A DNA stretch of 29,962 bases from Baffinella frigidus. Taxonomy: Eukaryota; Cryptophyceae; Cryptomonadales; Baffinellaceae. The first letter of the stretch is position 1; every line of letters starts with the position of its first letter. The translations under genes and the position numbers were made by a program. A model generated the notes under the pieces. The model was given only the letters and a program-made list of their open reading frames with translations. It had not been told where the DNA came from and ran no database searches. The DNA lies in the NCBI GenBank assembly GCA_026770585.1, contig MU646305.1, positions 1,069,190-1,099,151 of the forward strand, given 5' to 3'. This document shows positions 237 to 21,303 of the stretch, piece after piece.

Positions 237-3200
237 GTCCTAGCTCTGCCTTCCACGAACCCTCACGGGAGGACCAAATCGTCGATTTTAAGATCGCGGA
301 TTTCCCTTACGGAGGGGTCGGATTCGGCCCCTTCGTCCGAAGCAAGTGGCTCAAACAAATCGTCGATTTGGTCCGACCGTGAGCGTTGGTGGTTATTAAT
401 TCTGCGCTCGCCATAAAACATTTTACTTGCCCTTTTGTACCACCGTTTCTGCTCTAAATGTGTTTTGTGGCGAGCCCAGTTTTAAGAAGGCATAGCTAGG
501 ACCGACGAATTCGCGCCTTTTCGAAAAGGAACGAGGTCACACCACGCCCGATTGCTCAGAGGGGCTCGGCTTTTTTCGAGCGCACTTTCGGGCGCCGAAC
601 TATCCCAAAAGTAAACGATTCCCCCTGGTTCCTTCCGGGGAATTGACTTTTGGCGACCCCTTCCAAGACTCTGGCGTGGCACACGTCTTTCTAAGACGAA
701 TTCGCCTCTTCGAAAAGTCGTTTGAAGAGGCTGACTACCCCAACGAGGTCGCAAACTCGCCAACAAGTCGACACTAATTTCGGACCGTGGTACAAAGTTA
801 GAACGCGCTGGTACGAAACGGTTTTAATTCCCCTGAAAATAAGTAGCGCTCCGCCTCTTCGATCAGGCTGGCTACCACACGAGGCTATCTATGCGAACAC
901 ATTCTTAAGTCAATTATTGGATTATCGCCCAGGAAACACGCCCAAAGTCAGCAATTGGTCACGTGGCGCCCGAACGGCGGGCGGCTTCATGACCCAATAC
1001 AATGAAAATTACTACACACGTTTAAGATAGACATGTATTATCATACGTTTAAAATAGACATGTATCACACGTTTAAAATAGACATGTATTATGTTCGCAT
1101 GGGTGGCCTCGTGTGGGACGCCCACGAGGTCGGTCTTATCCTCTTTACTACACTCACGTGTAAGCCTTGAGTTGTGTGATCAAAAGCTCTCAACACTGCT
1201 GATGCCACGGAAGAGTGGCTATCAAAATGCCAAAGAGATGACCCACTTCCACGCAAGAGTGTAGGACTGACCTTGGAAAACAAGTCAGTTCATACGGAAT
1301 TTGTCCCAACTTTCCGAAATTTCGATTCTCTCTGGGGAGAATGTCCACTTATGAACTTAAAAAATAGTCAGATCTGACTATTTCTCCTGTACGCCAGTCA
1401 GCTCTACACTCTTGCGTGGTCAGCAGCTCTTATCGCGTATGGGTTATTCGGAATGCAGGCTGCGGACATCAACCTGTTCAAGAGTCTCTACTCTAGACGC
1501 ACACCTGCCACCAGCCCTCCGAAGCGGACCAAATCCAGGGTGTGGCTTGAGCCATTTCCGCCCTTTCCGCCAGCAGAGGCCGGGCGTCCCCCAAAACCTC
1601 AACTTTTCAGGCCTTGCGTGTCTCTCTATGGCTCCTCGCCCCTCAAACACGCAACGGTTAACTTTAGATTCATGCGCGAGGCCATGCAACTTAAACCGTG
1701 TTTTTGCTATCTTGGGGTGGGGTTTCTCCCATGGTAAAGCTATGTCGACGCTAAAATAGCAAAATCTGATAAATTTTACCCTTACGATAGCACAAAAGGC
1801 GGTTTTGAATTGCATGGCCTCGGACACTAAGACGGACCGGGATGCAGGCTGCGAACATCAGGCTGTTCAAGGAGCTGTACTCGGACTTTGACATCATCGT
1901 GCCTGGCGTCGTCTCTCAGGTCAAGCTGATAGGGTCACGTCCTGAAAACCGGGTAGTTAGGCCTACGGTATTGCCTACGGTAGGCCGTAGGGCTCCTAGG
2001 ACCTCATCTTTCGCAGGACCCCCCTTAGGCCCCTACGTCCTACTGTAGGCAATACCGTAGGCTCAACTACCCGGTTTTCAGGACTTGAGCCTATGAAAGC
2101 CCTCCACGCGACGATAGATACACATCAAATCTACCTGTCTTTCTATTATTTCTGCTACACAGCGGACGAAATTCGTCCGCGGTTTAGTACAAATGAGTAA
2201 GTCCAATTGACGTAATTGTGCCTGGTGTCGTCACGCAGGTCAAGCCCTCTCTCAGTCGATTTTATTCTCGGAACATAACAGAAGATGCGGTTTGCAAAGA
2301 CTTTAAAAGCCGATTTATGCTATTTTGAGCCTTGGTTTTATGCCTACAATGGCATATCCACCCTTATCTTCGGCGTTGGAAGCCCTCAGATACACACCAG
2401 ATTATGTTATGTTCCGAAATGAATTTGGTCTCGCCAACGTGGCGAGCCCGGGCTCTGTCCCACTTCGATTTCGTCTCCCCATCAATTCGACCCCCCCCCC
2501 AATTCCTCAAGTAAATTTTGACCCCCCCCATGAAGTTTGCTTGATAAATTTCGGGGGGGCGAATTGATGGGGAGACGAAATCGAAGTGGGACACCCGGGC
2601 TCCTCCGGGGTGGTAGCGGGTGTTTGAGCCCTGTGGTTTCGACGCATCTCTTCCCCTAGCGTGAAGCGGTCGTGTTTGTCAACTTATCAAACCTCGCTTT
2701 TCCCCCGGCTACGAAGACAGCGAGCTACGAAGACGACCCTGTGTTGGCCTCATTGATACCAGCAATCTGTCTTCGTAGCCCGCTGTGTGGCCAGCACACG
2801 GCTCACAGGACCGTTTCCTGACTTCCCGCCACTTGGGACTTTTCTCAGAATTCCAAAGTGGTCAAATTCCAGGGCGTGGTGTGGCAGGGCACGAATGGAC
2901 GCGTGCTGTCGATGGAATGGGTCGAGGGGACCAAGCTGGTGGCGCGGGGCAAATCGGGCGTGGGCCAGGATGACCTCCCACTTCTTACGGTCCCCCCAAA
3001 ACCTGAACCCTAAGGCGGCACCACTAGCCCTCAGAAGTGGACCAAATCGAGGGCTTAACTTGAGCCATTTCTCGCCCGCGGAGGGTCGAGTTTGACCCTT
3101 GACAGGGCGAAAACGGCTCAAGCCACATCTTGGATTTGACGTCCTTACGGATTGCCTACCGTAGGGTCCTGTGGATTATTCACGTATGGGTTCTTCACGA

Positions 3201-6200
3201 CAACCCACTTCTCACGATTTCCCGAAACCCTAAACCCGGTGGTTTACGTTTTCGCCCTGACTGTCGACAGACCTTTGGGGGTTTCGGTCTTTTTTGCGAT
3301 GAGCTTGCCGAGTTCAATCCCCTTGATTTTTACTGGAGGTCGCCTATCTCATCGCGTCCCTCCATAGATTCTATCAGATTTCAGTGGGGCTTGGAACCAT
3401 TCTGTACATTTAGAAGCTTTAAAACTCTTCGATTTGTACCAGAAATCCAAGCTGGTGGAGCTCCGCCCAAGCTGGCGGGAAATCGGGCTTGGCATAACCG
3501 TCTTTCTAAAATTTGTACCATGAACCTGATACCTTCGGAGAAGAATCGAAGAATCCTGGTACAAATCATGGGTCTCGCGAAGAGGAGGTGCCCACGCAAC
3601 CACTCGAGAATGCTAGAGGATCCTATTTACATGTGGTGTTGTAAATATTTGTACCAGGATAACGTATCCAACCTCGTGACTGTGCTAATTTTGCAGAGTT
3701 ACGTGACCAGCCTCACGAAAGTTACTTCACAAATGCCCACTTGTAAAAGTAATCGGTTTTAAATAGGTCCCTCCAGCATTCTCGTGTGGAACGCTGACCT
3801 GTGTATCAAATCCCTCTGTTTTCAAAGTCAACTCGCCTTCAATCGCCCACAAATCTGTACACTTATCTGGATTGCAGATTAAAACACTTTTAGAAGTGCA
3901 CGAATAATAGAAAGACTCAACAAAAAAACACCTGTTTGATACACAGGCCATCGTCGCGTGGGCCTCAACTCTGAGGGCTGGCTCACAACCTGTTGACATT
4001 CCTCATAACCTGGCGATGCTCTCTCTGATAACTCACAGCCTGTTCGTCTCTCGACAGCTCGACAAGCGAATCAGCTCCCTATTTAGCGTTTTCATTTAAT
4101 TAGGAGGCCTAATAAAATTCACTATGACCTCACTAATTTCTCCTATTCAATCTCCTATTGAAAAGGAACTGGTTCAGGTATCTTCCGAGATGAACTCGGA
4201 GGGCTGGTGGTGCGCTCGCAGCTTGGCGGCATAACGTTGGTCTCTCGCAAACCAACGTTGGTACTCAGGGCTGTCAAGGCTGAGACCAACATAACTCATA
4301 ACCTGTGTTGGTCTCTCGCAGCTCGGCATACAATTCACGCTCACTCATAACCTGTTGCCATGCCTCACAACCTGGTGGTGCTCTCTCTGACAACTCACAA
4401 CCTGTGTTGGTCTCTCGCAGCTCACTCATAACGGGGGAAAGGCGAGTTTTATTAAGTTGATAAACCGACGGCGCACGCTAGGGGAAGAGATGATCGAGAC
4501 GCAGGGCTCTAGTGCCCGCAACCACCCCTTAAGGGGTGGATCTCATCCCGCCGAGTATTCATAATGAATACGATTTCGGGGATCTCCGATTCGATTTTGG
4601 TGTATCTTGAGGCTCTAAATGAAGTCTAGATATACGACTGTCTTATTTATACCCCTTAAGATACACCAAAATCGTATTCATTATGAATACCCGGCGGGAT
4701 TAGATCGTTCACTGGAACGCCTCGCCCACTAGGACCTGTGTTGGTCTCTCTGATAACTCACAACCTGTTGGTCTCTCGACAGCTTGGGATCCAATTCACG
4801 CTCACGCATAACCTGTTCTTACACCTCATAACCTGTTCGCGCTCGCAGCTAATCCATAACCTGTGTTGCTCTCTCGACAGCTCGGGATCCAATTCCCGCT
4901 CGCGCCTGGCTCATAACCTGCTGCCATACCTCACAACCTGTTTGTCTCTCGACTCGCAGCTCATAACCTGTGTTGCTCTCTCGACAGCTCGGGATCCAAT
5001 TCACGCTCGCGCAGCTCCTGGACGAGGGGGTCATGCACGCGGATCCACACCCTGGAAACCTCCTCAAAACAACAAGCTCACCGCCAAGGCTCGTCTACTT
5101 GGATTTCGGCTTGGTCGCCAAGGTCCGACCACACAGCTACGAAGGCATTTCTGGCCCAAATCGGGCCACCTTTTCGTCACCTTATCCGTAGGAACCCCCC
5201 TATGTCCCTGAGAGTTACCTACTGTAGTGTTGTTTGTCTTATCGCTTTGAGGTTATTCAAATCTCTTCGAAGTCGCTGCGTGGGCGGATCAAACACCCTT
5301 TTTAAAACCCGGGGAGCTGTACACGTGAGCAGTGTGTAGTAATTTTCACATGTTTGGTCGCGTGGCTACACGCGTTTCGTGCAGCCACGTGATCAACGTC
5401 ATACAAACCGCGTACAATCGACATTTAAAAAGGGTGGTGGATCAGCCTCGTGTGGTCCTGGTGCTAAGCCCCCGATCAAAACAACTTCCTCCCCACCGCC
5501 AAGGTCCACCAGCCCTCCGAAGTGGACCAAATTCAAGATGTGGCTTGAGCCATTTTCAGCCATTTCTGCCTGAAAATGGCTCCAACCGGGTCGAATTGGA
5601 CCCGGCTCAGGTGGATATCAAGAAAACTGAAATCAGGATTTGGTCCACTTCGGAGAGCTAATGGTGGGAGGTGCTTACACCCTGGAAATTTCCTCAAAAC
5701 AACAAGCCCGGAGGCGAAAAGGCCTACGTTTGGCGAAGACCATATTTGGTCTTCGTCAAACGTTGCGTTTTTTAACAAAAAGCGGCAAAATTTCGCGAAA
5801 TTGACCGAAGTTGTCGAAAAAAGCCCAAATTTGAATCAAATTTGAGGTCACGCCCGAAATGCAGATACGAATTTAGAAGAACGTAGACCTGTTGGTATCC
5901 GGGCGCGGCTCTGTGCCGCGACTCTTCTACTTGGATTTCGGCCGAGTCGCCAAGGTTTCGCTCTGTCTCAGTTTATTTTGGCCCACCGATTTGGCGAGCC
6001 CGGGCTCTTTGCCGCTCCAAAGTTGACGAATTTGTACCGCAAACCGGTTGGCAAGAAGTCTTTGTACCGAGCAATTATTAGTTATTACCACAAATGTAAG
6101 TTCACCTGCATATGCCAACCTGCGGTACAAATCCGCAAAACCACAACCTGCGGTACAAATCCGCAAAACGGGGGGAAAGCGAGTTTTATCAAGTTGATAA

Positions 6201-9200
6201 ACCGACGGCACACGCTAGGGGGAGATGATCGAGACGCAGGGCTCTAATGCTCGAAACCAACACGAGTGAAACTGTTTTGGGTCGAAGTCTCCCGCAGATT
6301 TCATTCCGCCAGGCATTCAAATTGAATGCTCGAAATGCATTCTTTTGGCGTCAGATTCTGGCTGAAGTTTTCCACTTCTGACGCCAAATGTATGCATTTC
6401 GAGGATTTAATTTAAATGCCTGGCGGGATGAGATTCCAGACTATACTCAAGTTGCCATGCTGGGTTCGCGGTACGAATCCGTCAACGTTGGAGCGGGAAA
6501 GAGCCCGGGCTCACCCATTTAGTCCCAGCACCAAATAGAATTGATTTCAGGAATGTCCTTCTAAACGAAGATTTATACCAAGAACTTTGAGGATTTTAAA
6601 ATATTCGTGCTTTTAGGGCTTTAAAATATCTGGATGTGTACCAAGAATCGTTTAGAAAGAAAGTTTCGAGATTAATTCCATTATGGATCGCGATGAAATT
6701 TGGTGAAACCCGCAAGACCAACACACACGAAACCGTTTTGGGCGGATTAAATCAAGGATGGAGTTTGAGACGTTTCCTTCGGACAGAGGTTCGATTTCGA
6801 GGCCCCGGTCGTGGGAAATGGCTCACGCTCCATCCTCAATTTGATCCACCGAGGATGCACCCTGTGGGCAGATTCCAGAGCAAGTGCGAACGGGGCTGGT
6901 CCAGGCGGTGGCCTGTGATACAATACACTGCCAGGGAGGATACTTTGTAAAAGTCGATTCACCCACAAAATCTGTCAAATTAGAAACAAGTCACCCAGAT
7001 TGGGTACTTCGAAAATCGATTCTCGCCTTGATTTGACTAATTCAAAAACTCCGCCCTGGCAGTGCAATAGTCGGTGAGCCTTACAAACGAGCCCGCCTCG
7101 CGACCGGCAGATTCCAGAGCAAGTGCGGACGGGGCTTGTCCGGGCGGTGGCGTACCTTGTTGCAGAAGACTTCCCCCGTCTCGCGGGGCTCTTCGGCGAC
7201 CTCATGCTGCTCCCCCAGGCGCCGACCCCCCCTTACCTCAGCACGTGGCCCCTGTGAGGGTGCAAAAATCTCATCGGAAAACGATTTTGGTTTAAAACTT
7301 TCTGGTACTGAAAAATGTACTACACAGAATGAGTTTTGCTAGTAATATTGAAGCAAACGTGTATTGACTTTCATCGATTTCCAAGGTTTTGAAATAAAAC
7401 CGTTTTCCTATGAGATTCTCAGTGCGGACGGGGCTTGTCCGGGCGGTAACGTACCTTGATGCAGAAGACTTTCCCCGTCTCGCGGGGCTCTTCGGCGACC
7501 TTATGCTTCTCCCCCAGGTCTGAGGAGACTAGTGTAACCCAGGAGAGTTGATGGTCAAATTGATAGTCAAATTCCCAGGGAGTTGATGGTCAATTGATAG
7601 TCAAATTCCTCCAAAACAATCTCGTTAGAAAAGGCCGCAGTTTCTGGACCCTTGTTTGACCATCAATTGATGGTCCAAGGGGTCCTTAGATCATCAACTT
7701 GATGGTCAAAAGTTTGCAAAGGAGTTTTTAAAAATCTGGAGTTTTAAAATTTTCACCAGGAATTGACTTTTGGACTTAATCAAGGGGGCAGAAACTGGGG
7801 CCTTTTCTAATTAAATCCACGTCTCGTGGGGGTCTTCGGCGACCTTATGCTGCTCCCCCAGGCGCCCTCCCTCCCTGTTTTAGTTACCCCTAAATGTGTT
7901 TTAGTTATCATTAAATGTGTTTTAATTGCCACGCCGCCCCCCCCCCTTACCTCAGCACGTGGCCCCTGTGCTTCTCCCGCAGGTCTGAGGATACAGTCCC
8001 GTGTAGGATGGCCGGAGTGACCTTGCCATCGTCCCGTGTAGGATGACTGCTTGTGACTTTACCACACGGGACTGTATCCCCAGAGCAAGCGCCGCCCTTA
8101 CCACTCGAGAATGCTGCAGGGTCCTATTTATATGTGGGGTTGTAAATATTTGTACCAGGATAAGGTGTTCCAACCTCGTGACTGGCCAATATATGGCTAG
8201 TTACGTGACCGATCAACGAAAGTTACTGCACAAATGCCCACTCTTAAAAGCACATTGGTTTTAAGAAGGCCCCTTTAGCGTTCTCGTGTGGCCTGTTGAA
8301 TGACCGGTTGTGACTTTACCACACGGGACTGCATCCCCAGAGCAAGCGCCGCCCTTCAATTGATAGTCAAATTCCAAGGGATTCCAAAAAAGCGTCCACG
8401 TCTTGCGGGGCTCTTCGGAGACCGCATGCTTCTCCCCCAGGGTTTTAGGGGTTGGGGTACCCTTAAATGTGTTTTAGTTACCCCTAAATGTGTTTAGTTG
8501 TCATCAAATGTGTTTTAATTACCACTGTGTACCGGATTTATGTTCATGTATTTTCTGGCGAGACCTTGTTTTACGAAGTCAGAGGTATACCCCCCATTCT
8601 CGCGTCAAGTTTTCTGATCGTTTAAGTTTAGTGTATGCACACCTGCCACCAACCATCCAAAGTGGACCAAATCCAGGATGTGGCTTGCCATTTTCTGCCA
8701 TTTTCCGCTTGAAAATGGCTCCAACCGGGTCAGATTCGACCCTTCTCAGGCGGAAATCGAGAAAGCTAAAATCGGGATTTGGTAGGGGGCGTCGCCTGGT
8801 GCAGCGGGTCTCTCTTTAGTCAACTCCATTTCTTGGCCAAAACTATCCGAAACGTTCATTCTTTATCGACCCACTCGTGTGGTAAACACCCCGAATTCGC
8901 CCGATTAAAAGAAGCCCGGGTTAAATTCCCGCGAGTTGACCGATGAAGTTTGTTGACCGATGAAGTTTGTTGACCGATGAAGTTTGAAAGTATCCAAGGA
9001 TTCCGGGAGAACCCTCAACCCTACACTCTAAACCGAATCAACCTATGTTTCTCTGAACCCAGGAGGGCCACCCAGCGGGCTACGAAGGGATTTTTGGCCC
9101 ATTTCGGGCCGAGTTTCCGTTACCTTATCCGTAGAACCCCCCCCTATGTCCCTACGGGTTGCCTGCTGTAGGGTCCCATGGTCTTGTCGCGTGGGGGTTA

Positions 9201-12200
9201 TTTGAAATCCCTTCGAAGTCCGCTGTGTGGGGTTAGGCGACCTCGTTCGGCTCGAACAGTTCAAACAATATCCTTTAAGTGGCCAGTAGGCTCATACGCC
9301 CTACAGTAGGGCCCTAGGACCTGCCTAGGACCTGGCGTGGGTCTTTTAAGACCCCCTGGCCACTTGAGGCATACCTAAACCCTAAACCCTAAACCCTAAA
9401 CCCTCAGCCCTCAGCCCTAAACCTTAACCCCAACCACCTTGCCCACTCCAGGCGCTTCGGTGGGGTATTTCATGTGCGTTCTTGGAGCCGTTTGTGCGTT
9501 CTTGGAGCCGTTTTTCTGCTAAAAGATGACATTTGAGAGCCAATATCCCTGCGAAATTACTTTTGAATACCCCCCCCTCCAGCCCTGCGTGGAGTTTGGA
9601 CCTTGTAGGTGCAGATCGCGTTTCCAAATCAGCAGTACATTTATCCAAACCTTAAACCCCAAACCCACTCTAATTATTTCTCTAAACCCCACGCAGCGGG
9701 CTACGAAGGGATTTCCCCCCAAACCCTAAACCCTACACCAGAAGGTACTGGACGACCCTGTCCGACGCAAACAGATCACCTCCGCCCTAGCGTATATCTA
9801 TCTAAACCCTAAACCCTGAACCGAATTCAAGTATTTCTCTAAACCCCACACCCCACACCCGAAACCCGAAACCCTACACCAGGAGGTACTGGACGACCCT
9901 GCCCGACTCGAACAGTTCACCGCCGCCCTGGCGCGCGCTGCGGTCAGCCCACATCCTGAACCCTTGGATGTGCACCGGGACCTACCGTAGGCCGTAGGGC
10001 TCCTATGACCATTTTTTTAATAGGATTTTGGCCTACAGTAGGAGGTCCTAGGCAATGCCGTAGGCCTAACAACCCCATTTTTAGTCCATTACCCTATTAA
10101 GTTCACCGCCGCCCTAGCGCGCGCTGCGGTCAGCCCCATCCCTGCACCCTAACGTTAAGGATTTTCTGGTGCAATTTGGTCACGTAACACCCTGAATTCC
10201 AGTCAGCGCACACCCTGAACCCTTGGATGTGCACCGGGAATCGAGACTTCTCATCCCGAGCCATCTATTCGCCCCGTAGGAACCCCCTAGGTTCCTAGGT
10301 GTTTCCTACCGTAGGGTCGTACTGAACGAATAACAGCCCAAACCCTGAACCTGCCTTAGCGCGCGCTGCGGTCAGCCCACACCCTGAACCCTAACCATTT
10401 ATCCCTCAAATGGCGAGTAGGCTCATACGCCCTACGGTAGGGCCCTATGACCTGCCTACGCCCTACGGTAGCCCCCTATGACCTGCCTACGCCCTACGGT
10501 AGGGCCCTACGACCTGCCTAGGGCCCAAACCCTGCCAAAACTTAATCTGGCCGCCAAAATTGACTTTTGCAACCATCTACATTTGCGGGTACAGGGGTAT
10601 CTCTACCGCTCGGGCCTATCGCTCCCCAAGCGCTTTCAAAGGGCCATCTCCCTATATCTGTATGATCCGTGTCCAAACCCACCGAGCCTAGCCACCAGCC
10701 CTGGGAGGTTGCTCAAATCGAGCTCTGGAACTATTTTCCAAAAGTTGATTTTTGGTACAGAACGTGTCAACTTTCGTCGCAGACACCCCATATCTGGGGT
10801 GTCTGTCAAGGCAAACCAAAAATGTGACAGACCCTTAGAGCCACTTCCAAGGGCTAGTGGAGTAGGCACGGCAGTTCACCTCCGCCCTGGCGCGCGCTGC
10901 GGTCAGCCCCATCCCTGCACCCGAAACTCTAAGAATTGGTTTAGGGTTCACGTCCACACGGTGGACTACAAACCTTTCATCAAAAGTCAACTTGCCTTGA
11001 GGCAATTAGCTTTAAAGATTTTTTGGTGCAATTTGGCCACATAACACCCTGAATTCCAGCCCCAGCGAAACCCTCGTAGCCCACCGTGTGTTTAGGGTTC
11101 ATCGCCCGCATGCAGTTTATAATTGACCTGGTACCACACGGTGGGCTACGAGGGTTTCGCTGGGGCTGGAATTCAGGGTGTTACGTGACCAAATTGTACC
11201 AGAAAATCCTTGAAGTTAATTGCCTCAAGGCATGTTGACTTTTGATGAAAGGTTCGTAGTCCACCGTGTAAACCGTGAACCCTAATCCAATTCTTAGAGT
11301 TTCGGGTTTAGGCCTGAGGATTTCATTGCCGCAATTGCGCGAGCTTCGATGGGTTTTCCGAATAACCCTTCAGCGATAAGACCTATGACCCTACGGTAGG
11401 CAACCCGTAGGGACATAGGGGGGTTCCTGCGGATAAGGTAACGGCAACTCGGCCTAAAATGGGCCGACAATCTCTTCGTAGCCCGCTGTGTGGCCTGGGG
11501 GGGATGCATCCTCACGGTGGACGACGGAACTTTCATTAAAAGTCAAGTTCCGGAACTTTCATTAAAAGTCCCGGAACTTTCATCAAAAGTCAACTTACCC
11601 TGTGGATTGCGGGCGCTTCGGTCAGCCGAAACCCTGAACCCTTCAGGCTGGCGGAGGGGAGGGAGAGGGGGAGGGGGGGGAGAGAGAGGACAGAGAGGAG
11701 AGAGAGAGGAGAGAGAGAGGAGAGAGAGGAGAGAGAGGAGAGAGAGAGGGAGAGGGAGAGAGGGGTGGCGGGAGAGAGAGAGAGGACAGGATCTTTCTTC
11801 CTTCTTCTTTATTACTCTCGATACAGGTCCTAGATAGGCCCTTTAGCCTTGAGTTGAGTGATACAATGTCTATGAGCCTCAAAAACCCTGATCCCTCAAC
11901 CCTTCACCCGAACCCTAAAACCCTCAAGACAGAGACCTTTCTTAAGAAACAGACCTTGATTCAAACCACACGGCCGCTATCGCGCACGCTGCTGCTACTG
12001 TCATCTTAAACCCTAAACCCTAAACCCTTAACTGGTTGCTGATTCCCTTGTAAAGCCTTCGGTAGTCAAAACGCGAAATCCGATACTCCGTATGGCCACG
12101 CACGTGAAATCGAGGAGTGTCAACTCGTTTCCGGGCCCCACGCCAGGTCTCAAGTGGAATTTTCTCTAAAGACAATTCTGAGCTTTATCCCCAGGAAACA

Positions 12201-12568
12201 TGCCCAAAGTCAGAAAGTTCCCCAGGAAACACGCCAAAAGTCAACATGAAACACGCCAAAAGTCAACAGGAAACACGCCAAAAGTCAACAGGAAACACGC
12301 CAAAAGTCAACAGGAAACACGCCAAAAGTCAGCAATTTGAGCCATTGGGGCATGCGCAATAATATTTTATATGTACCAGGAAACACGTTTAAAAGGAGGG
12401 AGCCTCAACCTTAAAATTCTAGGGAGCCTCCACCTTACAAGGGGTGAGCCTCAATCTTCAAATAGATTTTTTTTTGTCAATTCTGTAAAGCCTCCAACCT
12501 CCACCCTCCACCCTCCACCCTCCACCCTCAACCCTCAACCCTCAACCCACAACCCTCAACCCTCAATC

Positions 12569-12628
<60 letters not shown>

Positions 12629-15600
12629 AACCTCAACCCAAAAATCAAAACCCTAAACCCCAAACCCTGAACCCTCAACCCCAAACCCTCAACCCTGAAT
12701 AAACCCTAAACCCTTGCGGACTATTGGCGCACCGACCTCAGGAGCTTCTTCCACGCGATCGCCTGAAACCGGGCGACGTGCCACCAGCCCTCCGAAGCGG
12801 ACCACATCCAGGATGTTGCTTGGGCCATTTTCAGCCATTTCCGCTTGAAAATGGCTCCAATCGGGTCGAATTCGACCCGGCTCAGGCGGAAATCGAGAAA
12901 GCTGAAATCGGGATTCGGTCCACTTTGGCAGGAGGAGCTTCTCCCCCGCGATCGCCTGAAACCGGGCGAGGTCCCGCGCCTTCAGTTTGACAAGTGCTCC
13001 CCCGCTCCAAAGTTGACGCATTTGTACTGCAAACTCAGCGTGTCAACTTATCAATAGTCGGCCAACTCGAAAGTGGCAGAGCTAGACCAGCGCTTCGATA
13101 ACCGCCAGCCCTGCAAGGCGGACCAAATCGACGATTGTTTTGAGCCGTTTTCTCGGGTGGCACATTCGTTTTCGAAGGTGCCGCCCGAGAAATTGGCGCA
13201 TGCTCCAGCCTTGATTTGGTCCGCCTTGGAGGGCTGGGGGAAGTGCGTGCTTCCAACAACCCGCTCTGCCTGAATAAAACTAATAAAACTGGGCTCGTCA
13301 TAAAAGCATTTTAGCAACCCTTTTGTACTGGATTTTCTGCTCTAAATTGATTTATGCCGAGCCCAGTTTTACTCAAAAGGACCTGGAATAACCCGCGACC
13401 GTTTCCTGATAAGAGGTTTACCACCCTGGAGGCAACTATTGGGCAAATCGGTGGATTCTTAGGTTAACCCCCATACAAATGCCACCATAATCGGGTGGCG
13501 TCTGTGGGAGATTGACTTACGATTTGCCCCTGGGTCGCCTCCAGGGTGGTTCGTGGGGCTGATCCGGCCCGGTGTAGGACCGGCCTGGTTCATTTTTGCG
13601 AAATCCCGTTTGTAGCACGATGTGTGGAACCGTTTCAGAAACCTCTTTGGTACAATCAAGTTTCAACTTTAACTGTGGAAACGAATAACATACTAGCTTC
13701 TGGCCAACGAAACTCACTACACAAATGCTTTACTCTCCCCGTCTCTACCTCTTAACCCTAATCTTAAACACTAAGCTCTAAACCCTAAACTTTAAACCCT
13801 AAATCCTGAACCCTGAACCCTGAAGCTTAAAATCTCCAGGCTTGTGAGAGATATCAGACCGCTTGCAATTGGAGGGGGATAAACCCCTCAACCCTAAACC
13901 CTACGCCCTAAACCCTTCACCGTAATCCCTAAACCCTGCACCTTAACCCCAAACCCTAAACCCTAGACAGTACACCCTAAACCCTGAACTAGGCTGATCG
14001 CCCATACACATTAAATCTTAGAACCAAAACCCCAAACACGCCTGAACCCTGAAACCTCAAACCCTCCAGGCTTGTGGGAGCAATCGGCGCGCTGGCGATA
14101 GGCTTCTCATTTACGCTCCCTCCCTACTTCCTCAACAATGCAAGGTTAGGCTCCCTCTCAGTCTTGTCGGGCTCGCCGATTTGGTGGGCCCGGGCTCGTT
14201 TTCACTCCAAAGTTGACGGATTTGTACCGTGAACCCAGCTTGTTAACTTGAGCGTAGTCGGTGAACCCGAGAGAGGCATCTCAAAAAAGCCTTTCTTTCT
14301 CCAAACGGTTTCTCGCCACCGAAATTCACTACACAAACGCTCTACCATTACTAGTAAGATCAAATTGTGTAGTAAATTTCGTTGACAGAAACCCTTTCTA
14401 GAAAAACATGTTTGAGATTAGCTTGTTGGAGCGATCGGTGCGCTTGCAAGAGACTTCCGAAGTGCGTTCCCGCTCCCTCGTAGAGCGCTTTGCAGAGAAG
14501 TTGGCCACGGGAAATAATGGGAAATCGAGAAATTGGAGCCATTTTGTCGACTTTTGAGAAATTTGGTACCATGAATTTCTCAAAGGTGGACAAAATGGCT
14601 CCAATTTTCCCGTTTTTCTATTTTTCGGTGGCCAACTTCTCTGCACAGCGCTCTAACGCAAGGAGACTTTGCGTTCCCGCTCTCTCGTAACGCAAGGTCC
14701 AGGGCGTAGGGTTCAGAGTTCCGGGTTTTCTCCTCCTCCTCTCGGATGTCTGCCCCCGCTTCTCGAATCAAGTCTGGCCCCACTTCTCAAATCAATGCGC
14801 CCAACGCGTAGCTACCACCAACCCTCACAGTCTGGGCAAATCGGGGAAAATGGCTCCAAAAATCCCCTTGAAGGCCGTCGGATTCCGACGGCCTCCAAGG
14901 GGATTTGGTGTTTTTGACTTTTTCGATTTGCCCAAGTTGTGAGGGTTGGTGGTATGTCTCAGCCTGTCTGAGTTGACGACCTTGGTGAGCCCGGGCTCTT
15001 TCCCGCGCCGAAGCTGACGGATGTGTGCCGCGAACGGTACACATCCTTCTGTGGGAGATTCTCAAGGTGGCATGCTGGGTGCATGTCACCTTGCGAATAG
15101 TCGGTCAGTCCGGTTGAGACAGAGCTAGGACGACTTTCCGTTCACGCTTCCTGCTTGCTTCATCTACACCGCAAGGGCTAGCTCTGCCCCAGTAAATTTA
15201 GGCTCGCCATTATTTCGCCCCCCCCCCGAAATTTCACAGGTGAATTTTGACACCCTCCCATGAAATATACCCGTGAAATTGGGGGGGGGGGCGAAATAAT
15301 GGCGAGCCTAAATCTAAGTGGGACAGAGCTAAAAGGTCTAGCTCTGCCGCACTCGTGTTGACCGAGCATGGTCGAGCGGACTGTGCTGGTAATAAGACGG
15401 TCGTCGTGTTGCGATTTTTTTCTTGGTACTAAACAATGCATGCACCGATCTTAACGCTGGAACCGTTTTAGGGCGATTGGGACACTGCACTGCGAATCCG
15501 GATATTTTGTAAAAGTCAACATCCCCACAAATTTGTCAACTTTAGAAACGAGATACACCATCGGTGTACTTCGATTTTCGATTTTCGTCTTGAGTTGACT

Positions 15601-18600
15601 AATACAAACTCTTCGCCCTAGCAGTGCACTGGAAGACCTGGCAAAGAGCGCGGATCTCATTCTGCCTGAAGTGGCCAAATTGGCAACTTCTGGCAACTTC
15701 TGACGCCAAATGTATGCATTTCGAGCATTCAATTTGAATGCCTGGCGGGATGAGATCCCTCCTTTAACGTCCTGGCCGTCGCTATGAAACAATGGCAAAA
15801 GTTGACGATGCTGGTACTCAACGATCAACTGTGGTACTAAAAGGTCATCTTTGGTACTCCAACCGTAAACTTTGGTACTAAACGGTCAACTTTGGTACTC
15901 AACGGTCAACTTTGGTACTAGAAGGTCAACTTTGGTACTAAACGGTCAACGTTAGTCCTAAACGGTCATCATTTCAGGGCGATTGGGACATTGGAGGGTC
16001 TGGCGAAGAGTGCGGACCCCTCCTTCAACGTCCTTGCCGTCGTCTACGCCTTCTCGCTCCGCCAGCTCCTCAACTCTAAGTGAGGCCTCCTGAAATTTAC
16101 TCCAGTACCCGATCCGGATATAAGGTGGCACGGGTTGCTGGTGGACCCCCCACCGCCAGCCGAAGACCTCCTGAACCGAAGACCTCCTGAACCGAAGACC
16201 TCCTGAACCATTAACGCGAAGACTGTATCCATCACATCCTGGAAAGTCCTCGAGGGTTTGGTTCAGGAGACATGATTGGCTCCTCAACTCTCAGTGCACA
16301 TCCCTGAACCCTACACCCTTAACACTAAACCCAACTCGATCCTCTCGGGCCCAAAATTGACATTCTGGGACCCCAAATCGACATTATGGGACTGCAAATT
16401 GACCCCTCATTTCACGTCATTTTTCGTTTTTTTTTGTCAAAAAGGACGATAAACCCTTCTCTCTCTGGCAGCCCATCGACCCACACGGGGCTATTCATGA
16501 GAACATAATTATAAGTCAATTATTGGATTGTTACCCAGGAAACACGCCAAAAGTCAGCAATTGGTCACGTGCCTACACGCTTTCCGTGTAGCATTTCCCT
16601 GAATTTTTAAAATGTCCTTTTATTCTGTTCGCATGGATAGCCTCGTGTGGACGCCAATCACACTCCATTCCCTAAACCCCAAACCTTCAACCATACATCC
16701 TCAACCTTAAAACCTAAACCTCAAACCCTAACACCTGAACCCTGAACCCTAAACCCTAAACCCTAAACCCTAAACCCTAAACCCTAAACCCTAAACCCTA
16801 AACCCTAAACCCTAAACCCCACACCATAAACCCTAAACCCTAAACCCTNNNNNNNNNNAAACCCCACACCATAAACCCTAAACCCTAAACCCTAAACCCT
16901 AAACCCTAAACCCTAAACCCTGAACCCTGAACCCTAAACCCTAAACCCTAAACTCCAAAGCCATTAACCCTAAACCCTAAACCCTAAACCCTGAACCCTA
17001 AACCCCAAACCCAAAACCCAAAACCCAAAACCCTAAACTCCAAACCCTAATCCATACACTATAAACCCTAAACCCTAAACTCTAAACCCTAAACCCAAAA
17101 CCCTAAAACCAAAACCCTAAACCATACACCATAAACCCCAAACTCCAAACCCTAAACCCCAAACCCCAACCAACCCGACGCCCTCTGGGCCCGCAAATCG
17201 TTTCTGGTCCTGAGCGGGTATGCCGTCCGTGGTTAGGGTTTAGCTTCGGCAGCTCGTGTCCTCCAAATCCTCTCGCCTCGCCCTCACGCCCCCTGGGCCC
17301 CCACGTGTCTCTCAGCCGGGGCCGCCACCAGCAACCCGTTGCAGCTTTTAACCGGATCGGGTACTGTGGTAAATTTCAGCTGAACCGGACATATCTGTCT
17401 GTATCCCCCGTCAGCAATTCCGAGGTCCCTAGGGACTCCTACCGTAGGACCCTACGAACAACCCCCCCCAAAAAATCGTTCCCGGATTCTTGCAGGGATG
17501 CGGTGAAATCTGCTACGGGTTGCTGGTGGCGGCTAACGCACAGATTTCTCAGGCTGGGGGATATGTAGTGAGCATGCCCGGTTCAGTTATGGTCCTGGTA
17601 CAAACCATGTCTTCTCTTCTTCTTTATTTCTCTCGATACAGGTCCTAAATGGGGCCCTTGAGCCTTGAGTTCAGTGATACAAACGTATATGAGCCTTAAG
17701 AAACGGGCTCGCCTCAGAGACAAACCATGTCCTGCCACACAGTGGACTTCAAAGAGATTTTGAATAACCCCTAAGCGATAAGACCTGGGACCCTACGGTA
17801 GGCAATCCGTAGGGACATAGGGGGGTTCGTACGGATAAGGTAACGGAAACTCGGCCCATTTTGGGCCGAAAATCCCTTTGAAGCCCGCTGTGTGGTTCAG
17901 CCGCCAGGTGTGGGACTCGTAGCTCTGCCTCACTCATTGGTCGTCACGCAGGTCTCTCTGTGGCAGGAGAGAGAGAGAGTGAGTGAGAGTGTGTGTGTGT
18001 GTGAGAGAGAGTGAGTGTGTGAGTGTGTGCGTGCCTGTGTGTGTGTGTGTGAGAGAGAGGGTGTGTGTGTGTGTGTGAGAGAGAGAGAGATAGAGTGAGT
18101 GTGTGTGTGAGAGATAAAGCGAGTGAGTGTGTGAGTGTGAGTGTGAGTGTGAGTGTGAGTGTGAGTGTGAGTGTGAGTGTGAGTGTGTGTGTGTAAGAGA
18201 GAGAGAGCAAGAGATAAAAGGCAGACCGCGTGACTTCGCAACCAACCCGGGCACACGCCAAAAGTGCACTCCTCTTTACTTTTGGCGTGTTTCTGGTTCA
18301 GGAACGATAGGTTGCAGCAGACGCTTCGGAATATTGCATACAGCCCCACGGTGCTCTCCTGCTGACTTTTGGCGTGTTAAGTTAAGAAAACAAGGGGGGG
18401 CGAAAGGCTGCAGCAATACAATAATAATATTAATAATAATAATAGTAATAGTAATAATGATAATAAGTGTGATAATAAGTGTGATAATAAAGTATGTTCT
18501 GCTCTCTCTGGCAGGAACGAGGGTTTGCAGCAGACGCTACGGGACATTGCATACAGCCCCTCGACAGGCCGCCTCGACTGGCGCGAGGCCAGGTTGCGAG

Positions 18601-21303: not shown

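Follow-up and report, generated by a model that had tools for sequence, protein, structure and literature searches.

Most of the broken exon copies that accompany the exons of a Kinase ABC1-type (UbiB/AarF) gene in Baffinella frigidus are probably one half of a target-site duplication, left by the insertion of a short repeat through an agent that is either borne by the element or supplied by the host. According to this explanation, short DNA would be inserted where the two strands are cut approximately 35-135 bp apart (median 57). The insert would mostly be a hairpin of 100-200 bp or another dispersed element, and sometimes telomere-like or other repeat DNA. Fill-in of the overhangs would then leave the target on either side, in the order X-insert-X. 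Insertions of this type would be numerous and nested, and would strike exons and non-coding DNA alike. Within an exon, an insertion would be tolerated if the duplicated stretch runs over a splice site: on one side the exon would stay complete, splice sites included, and this is presumably the copy that is spliced, whereas the other side would become a broken copy ('echo') that retains one splice site, now lies in an intron and is chopped up by later insertions.

The window, i.e. the whole stretch of 29,962 nucleotides that was analysed, corresponds to positions 1069190-1099151 of a 2.02-Mb contig in an assembly of 382 Mb in 1364 contigs. The gene occupies positions 186 to ~20,640 of the window and has 11 exons on the plus strand, on which the echoes and elements of the window described below also lie. 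Its identity was established by a protein search with the conceptual exon join, and exons were mapped by tblastn with homologues. All 11 exon frames are open and match homologues. The best named relative is from Crustomastix stigmatica (59% identity over 67% of the query), and further named relatives are found in Effrenium (48% over 73%), Symbiodinium (47% over 83%) and Emiliania (43% over 86%). A Pfam scan of the translations of single exons gave no ABC1 match. Exon 1 (186-239; VDEFASRLFEEADYANE as seen in the window) was placed by tblastn and translation, and exon 2 (1844-1919) by its reading frame, QAANIRLFKELYSDFDIIVPGVVSQ. Exons 3 (2846-2992), 4 (4985-5122, carrying the HADPHPGN and LDFG motifs), 5 (7109-7219), 9 (15976-16077), 10 (18513-18596) and 11 (20562-20640) were located by tblastn, and exons 6 (9882-9949), 7 (12933-12990) and 8 (14074-14147) by the protein search with the exon join. 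The exon junctions, read by eye, fit the GT-AG rule and delimit introns of 0.9-3.0 kb; the exception is exon 5, whose intact copy has a CAG/GC donor (GC at 7219-7220). The right-hand echo of this exon ends in CAG/GT.

Partial copies beside exons 1, 2 and 4-11 had been described in a sequence-only reading of this DNA. Self-comparison of the window recovered them on the same strand and at the places given there, including 5908-5956, 7421-7518 and from 15471 onward. Exon 3, which was absent from that list, has a weak echo (2972-3010 against 3199-3237, 77% identity) in which the GT of the donor is changed. As a control for chance similarity, the best local score of each exon, using exon letters only, was determined in its own 1.5-kb flanks. 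For exons 1 to 11, these scores were 27, 25, 16, 27, 86, 38, 35, 22, 23, 37 and 37. For dinucleotide-shuffled flanks (132 trials), the 95th percentile was 12.5 and the highest score 18; for flanks swapped in from other exons (84 trials), the corresponding values were 13 and 19. All 11 exons thus exceed both 95% levels, and all except exon 3 also exceed both control maxima. The claim that echoes never occur away from their own exon holds within the window: when exons with 60-base flanks were compared, distant matches were telomere-like, belonged to dispersed elements or were weak (E above 0.001). One copy of exon 6 (11609-11643) lies 1.6 kb from its exon. A whole-genome search with the exon 4 stretch 5020-5140 returned only the stretch itself; this search missed the partial exon-4 echoes and excludes good copies only.

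Identity between echo and exon ranges from ~69% to 94%. This spread indicates repeated events over time, and neither a single burst nor duplicates produced by the assembly. An assembly artefact or haplotype duplication is extremely improbable: there is a single 10-N gap in the window (16849-16858) that could be held in its favour, but the copies differ by ~6-31% and carry different inserts. Retroposition was likewise given little weight, since the echoes include intron flanks and splice sites. The earlier description of the process as local, repeated duplication, distinct from both retroposition and plain decay, is borne out, and the copies are on the same strand.

Along the gene, the copies and inserts are arranged as follows. 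Exon 1 has echoes at 503-529 and 695-750, the latter 79% identical to 189-239. The start of exon 2 is echoed with its acceptor side at 1449-1493 (82%) and its end, with the donor CAG/GTCAAG, at 2207-2245 (85%). A hairpin element at 1929-2095 (inverted-repeat score 92) starts 2-3 bp past the left copy of the exon end; the right copy is 112 bp off, a distance that counts against our explanation. The upstream echoes of exon 4 are a different-looking case. They belong to a tandem array at 3977-5012 (unit 'cataacctg ... gctctctcgcag', i.e. 'cataacctg..gctctctc'), in which the acceptor region of exon 4 is multiplied several times. Downstream, an echo of 5047-5124 lies at 5677-5956 and is split into 5677-5707 and 5908-5956 by other sequence.

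The start of exon 5 is echoed with the acceptor at 6867-6912 (93%), and the hairpin that lies between this echo and the exon (6921-7069), which matches 15483-15631, ends ~8 and ~37 bp from the two copies. The ~37-bp distance, on the side of the left copy, also speaks against our explanation. To the right, a hairpin of a family that we call F1 occupies 7267-7418; 3 bp after it begins an echo (7421-7518, 94%) that starts with position 7122 of the exon. The exon end is present in a third partial copy (7816-7876), which follows a hairpin at 7625-7810, and in a fourth (8395-8441). The poor fit of the F1 junctions largely resolves if 7122-7256 is aligned to 7421-7518 plus 7929-7970, leaving ~10 bp on the left side. 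This arrangement suggests a duplication of ~135 bp (7122-7256) that may have been broken by later inserts. Outside the exons, a 63-bp duplication (8037-8099 and 8294-8356, 92%) lies exactly around a dispersed element at 8100-8293.

The start echo of exon 6, with its acceptor side, is found at 9717-9792 (88%) and is separated from the exon by telomere-like DNA. On the other side, a dispersed element (9980-10099) is followed by an end echo with the donor (10100-10239), which is broken by other sequence; more copies lie at 10353-10392 and 10872-10922. If the extra sequence of the right copy is left out of the comparison, 9914-9980 aligns to 10100-10150 plus 10202-10239 and the misfit resolves into a duplication of ~67 bp that the element abuts. 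In the right copies of both exon 5 and exon 6, we read the extra sequence as probable later inserts. Exon 7 has a start echo at 12740-12782 (91%) that includes an acceptor AG (12740-12741), and a hairpin or MITE-like element (CCACCAGCCCTCCGAAG..) at 12783-12932 fills the space between the two 43-bp copies. At 12929-12934, a CAG of the element (12929-12931) adjoins the duplicated AG before the intact exon, forming a NAGNAG-like double acceptor, and the older acceptor context stays on the echo at 12740-12741. Exon 8 has a start echo at 13840-13872 with a telomere-like spacer and a second echo at 14421-14689. The second echo is split by a hairpin at 14481-14655, on either side of which a flank of ~35 bp is duplicated (14446-14482 and 14658-14689). 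The echo of exon 9 (15471-15800) comprises nearly the whole exon and contains two splitting hairpins of different families, one at 15483-15631 and the other at about 15660-15770, whose junction repeats measure only 4-5 bp by eye. Exon 10 has a start echo with the acceptor at 18292-18350 (85%); its spacer includes a microsatellite but neither a hairpin nor a match to other loci. The start of exon 11 is echoed with the acceptor at 20413-20449, and another piece is found at 20239-20287.

In three cases, the duplicate abuts the insert on both sides within ~3 bp: the non-exonic 63-bp pair (8037-8099 [8100-8293] 8294-8356), the 43-bp pair of exon 7 (12740-12782 [12783-12932] 12933-12975) and the ~35-bp pair within the second exon-8 echo (14446-14482 [14481-14655] 14658-14689). 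Abutment is one-sided in the right-hand pairs of exons 2 and 8, and the left-hand pair of exon 5 abuts on neither side. The spacer is itself a dispersed element in several of 48 spaced pairs. For example, the element at 8100-8293 matches other loci from position -3 to 192 of its 194 bp, the spacer at locus L003 is matched from 3 to 148 of 155 bp, and 12783-12932 is matched from -1 to 146 of 150 bp by copies elsewhere in the window. In a first comparison, the flanks of hairpins matched each other at p<0.01 for 9 of 40 hairpins, against a null that includes repeat families. Because of these families, anchored and shifted controls were added. For 77 pairs, element ends were taken only from other loci and their coincidence with the duplicate ends was compared with a shifted control. 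The start of an element coincided with the end of the left copy in 9 pairs (1.8 expected; none of 2000 shifts reached 9), the end of an element with the start of the right copy in 7 (1.7 expected, P=0.0025), and both ends in 3 (0.13 expected, P=0.001). In the other 64 pairs, neither junction coincides with an independently defined element end; this weighs against our explanation, although it is partly due to a small comparison set in which few families are represented.

Inserts of a repetitive kind lie between many of the copies. Within 1-20700, we found 27 hairpin spans of 70-213 bp, compared with 0-1 in 8 block shuffles. In the same interval, dispersed matches, i.e. those to sequence at other loci or far off within the window, fall into 63 clusters, many of which have recurrent ends. 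Dispersed matches cover 46% of intron bases, and together with hairpins and telomere-like DNA the share is at least 55%, a lower limit since the comparison set comprises only ~110 kb. For exons 2-11, we mapped 15 pairs of exon and echo manually, setting aside exon 1 and additional copies. Ten of their spacers contain a dispersed element: seven hold a hairpin of score >=20, and three more a dispersed element (exon 6 right, exon 7 left and exon 11 left). Telomere-like DNA forms the spacer of exon 6 left and exon 8 left, and the remaining three contain neither: the spacer is a tandem array on the left of exon 4, a 20-bp tandem repeat on the left of exon 9, and holds a microsatellite on the left of exon 10. 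Five of 15 spacers without a hairpin or non-telomeric dispersed element, like the two hairpins in the exon-9 echo with repeats of only 4-5 bp, weigh against our explanation. Among local pairs with a score >=28 and an identity >=80%, the spacer length peaks at 100-199 bp, in a histogram drawn without a null; this class comprises 32 of 114 pairs in total, 23 of 70 beyond the window and 6 of 27 within its gene part.

The same layout was observed at other loci, for which the F1 family served as a guide. A first look at the genome gave 702 F1 candidates, and 40 places were scored. Of these, 39 extend from query position <=14 to >=150 and are near full length, in a search that favours full copies. 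Among 30 copies including that of the window, the adjacent flank is duplicated across the element in 8 cases on the right and in 8 on the left (0.3 expected each), and the number falls to 2-5 at a distance of 180-240 bp. Flank duplication anchored at the element end was found for 10 of the 30 copies (about 1.2 expected), and in 5 of the 30 the element is followed within 0-3 bp by a significant right copy. The other 20 have no duplicated flank, which counts against our explanation. Among the 10 positives, the match of L016 is simple-repeat-like, and those of L014, L021, L023 and L027 lie 345-1060 bp away. By eye, no constant short target duplication was seen in the flanks of the 30 F1 copies, and the copies listed show no poly-A, repeat tail or 5' truncation. 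F1 was probably active recently, because two copies (L012 and L006) are 99% identical to each other.

Exons are clearly enriched in these duplications, and this bias is real. Bases in local repeat pairs (score >=20) make up 63% of exon sequence vs 18% of non-exon sequence in 1-20640, a 3.5-fold difference; the share is 16% of 107 kb at other loci, which were 29 F1 loci of ~3.1 kb (six with some N) and parts of 3 of 20 random 10-kb pieces (18.9 kb), mostly fetched because of F1 and thus not a random sample. Ten of 11 exons are touched by such pairs vs a mean of 3.9 for random segments of equal size (none of 2000 draws reached this number). At stricter scores the values are 8 of 11 vs 3.5 (P=0.0065) and 6 of 11 vs 2.5 (P=0.019). 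It is this excess that would favour a gene- or exon-specific process copying exon-centred segments, as the sequence-only reading had proposed. We consider such a process improbable: the layout also occurs outside exons and at other loci, and the duplications run over exon edges instead of being centred on exons. Local and repeated duplication stands, but exon-centred, gene-specific copying does not, as most segments are duplicated flanks around inserted repeats. Selection and longer detectability may suffice to explain the exon bias at least as well as an exon-seeking process. Detectability would last longer because one member of an exonic pair is conserved, unlike two copies that drift freely. 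If an exonic insertion survives only where an intact exon remains, the duplicated stretch is predicted to cross an exon edge. All 15 mapped stretches do so, one of them covering both edges (chance ~0.017 if they are independent). As this predicts, the acceptor side is retained in the echoes on the left and the donor side in those on the right; exceptions to the one-splice-site pattern are the exon-3 echo, which lacks the GT, and the second exon-8 echo, which spans both edges. The elements may also have a true preference for exons.

Several known systems resemble these insertions in part. Introners and MITE-like introner elements of Micromonas, Aureococcus, Symbiodinium and Amoebophrya are short, repeated and intronic, often have terminal inverted repeats or hairpins, and are flanked by target-duplication repeats. 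In introners the element is the intron, and the direct repeats measure 3-9 bp in the excerpts available from PMC9860276 and 3-5 nt for Amoebophrya in those from PMC7789003. In the present gene, by contrast, each intron holds many elements, and the 15 mapped pairs have duplications of 35-135 bp, the hairpins of the exon-9 echo excepted. Except for the CAG before exon 7, no element end was seen at a splice site in this gene. Staggered-break repair also gives duplicated target of variable length, in Daphnia with an insert between the repeats. The Daphnia repeats are 4-12 bp long in the excerpted text of PMC4202315, the mammalian products are tandem duplications (PMC8355091, in excerpt), and the insert here is mostly a defined repeat. 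As far as these excerpts go, comparable processes leave much shorter repeats than the 35-135 bp found here. The elements share with MITEs their inverted repeats, hairpin spans of 70-213 bp, and dispersed copies with common ends, as in the multi-copy family F1; unlike in MITEs, the target duplications are long and variable, and a constant short one was absent by eye from the 30 F1 copies. The non-LTR retrotransposon R9 of rotifers makes a target duplication of 126 bp, similar in length to those described here. Unlike the short hairpins found here, R9 is coding and confined to rDNA. With LINEs and SINEs the hairpins share a variable target duplication; 5' truncation and an A-rich or repeat tail were absent from F1, the family inspected for them. 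Hairpin elements with duplications of 30-140 bp were not found among the matches listed in the open-access literature, judged by title or start of the abstract.

A related mode of origin, in which elements made the introns by entering contiguous coding sequence, would account for elements and direct repeats at intron borders and for the element CAG just before exon 7. It is quite improbable for this gene. The echoes already hold intron flank and a splice site and are found next to their own exon instead of at the far intron end, which indicates that the introns predate those insertions; introns of 0.9-3.0 kb with many elements each also argue against it. Another order of events, in which template switching or tandem duplication (by slippage or similar) came first and hairpins were inserted later between or into the copies, fits some of the data. 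Some spacers contain no element, the upstream side of exon 4 is a tandem array, and exon 9 has an echo of almost its full length that seems to have been split later by two hairpins with short junction repeats. Repeated insertion exactly at the junction between two copies is unexpected under this order, which we regard as unlikely overall.

The strongest competitor is host break repair alone, in which long overhangs are filled in and any available filler is joined without a dedicated integrase. This is possible, though we hold it with less confidence than the explanation given at the outset, with which its odds overlap. Spacers of several kinds and a duplication length that varies between 35 and 135 bp are in line with it, as is the hairpin family of 6921-7069 and 15483-15631, whose members are associated with a long duplication in one case and a very short junction repeat in the other. 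In mouse and human cells, tandem duplications were described to arise when ~50-nt 3' overhangs are filled in (PMC8355091, in excerpt), and new introns of Daphnia with direct repeats were ascribed to staggered breaks (PMC4202315, in excerpt). On the other hand, most hairpin inserts are full-length and end at common positions, as do 39 of the 40 F1 places in a search that favours full copies, and random filler would not produce this; the Daphnia repeats are also shorter, at 4-12 bp. As to filler of arbitrary origin, the exon spacers point both ways: 10 of the 15 hold dispersed elements and 5 do not. As regards the agent behind target-site duplication, full-length inserts with common ends favour one encoded by an element, and varied spacer types and variable duplication length favour host break repair.

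A more far-reaching and tentative possibility is an insertion system common to several hairpin families, with a stagger of tens to more than 100 bases. The long duplication would heal short exons, introns would grow from the exon edges, and the echoes would be a genome-wide fossil record. If true, this would explain how short exons can receive small elements in great number without loss of the gene and how introns grow from their ends. Echo divergence would then provide a dated record of insertions into coding sequence, and the duplications would point to a cutting reaction of unusually wide stagger. For annotation, the echoes would be decoy half-exons that carry one good splice site.

Two further features of the region were observed. 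Long imperfect telomere-like (CCCTAAA-type) arrays lie in introns at 12480-12715, 13740-14065 and 16655-17170 and just 3' of the gene at 20640-21250, far from the contig end (the window starts 1.07 Mb into the 2.02-Mb contig). A 413-bp inverted repeat at 10907-11319, with 85% identity over its length and 93% in the inner arms, is larger than any other hairpin in the region of the gene.
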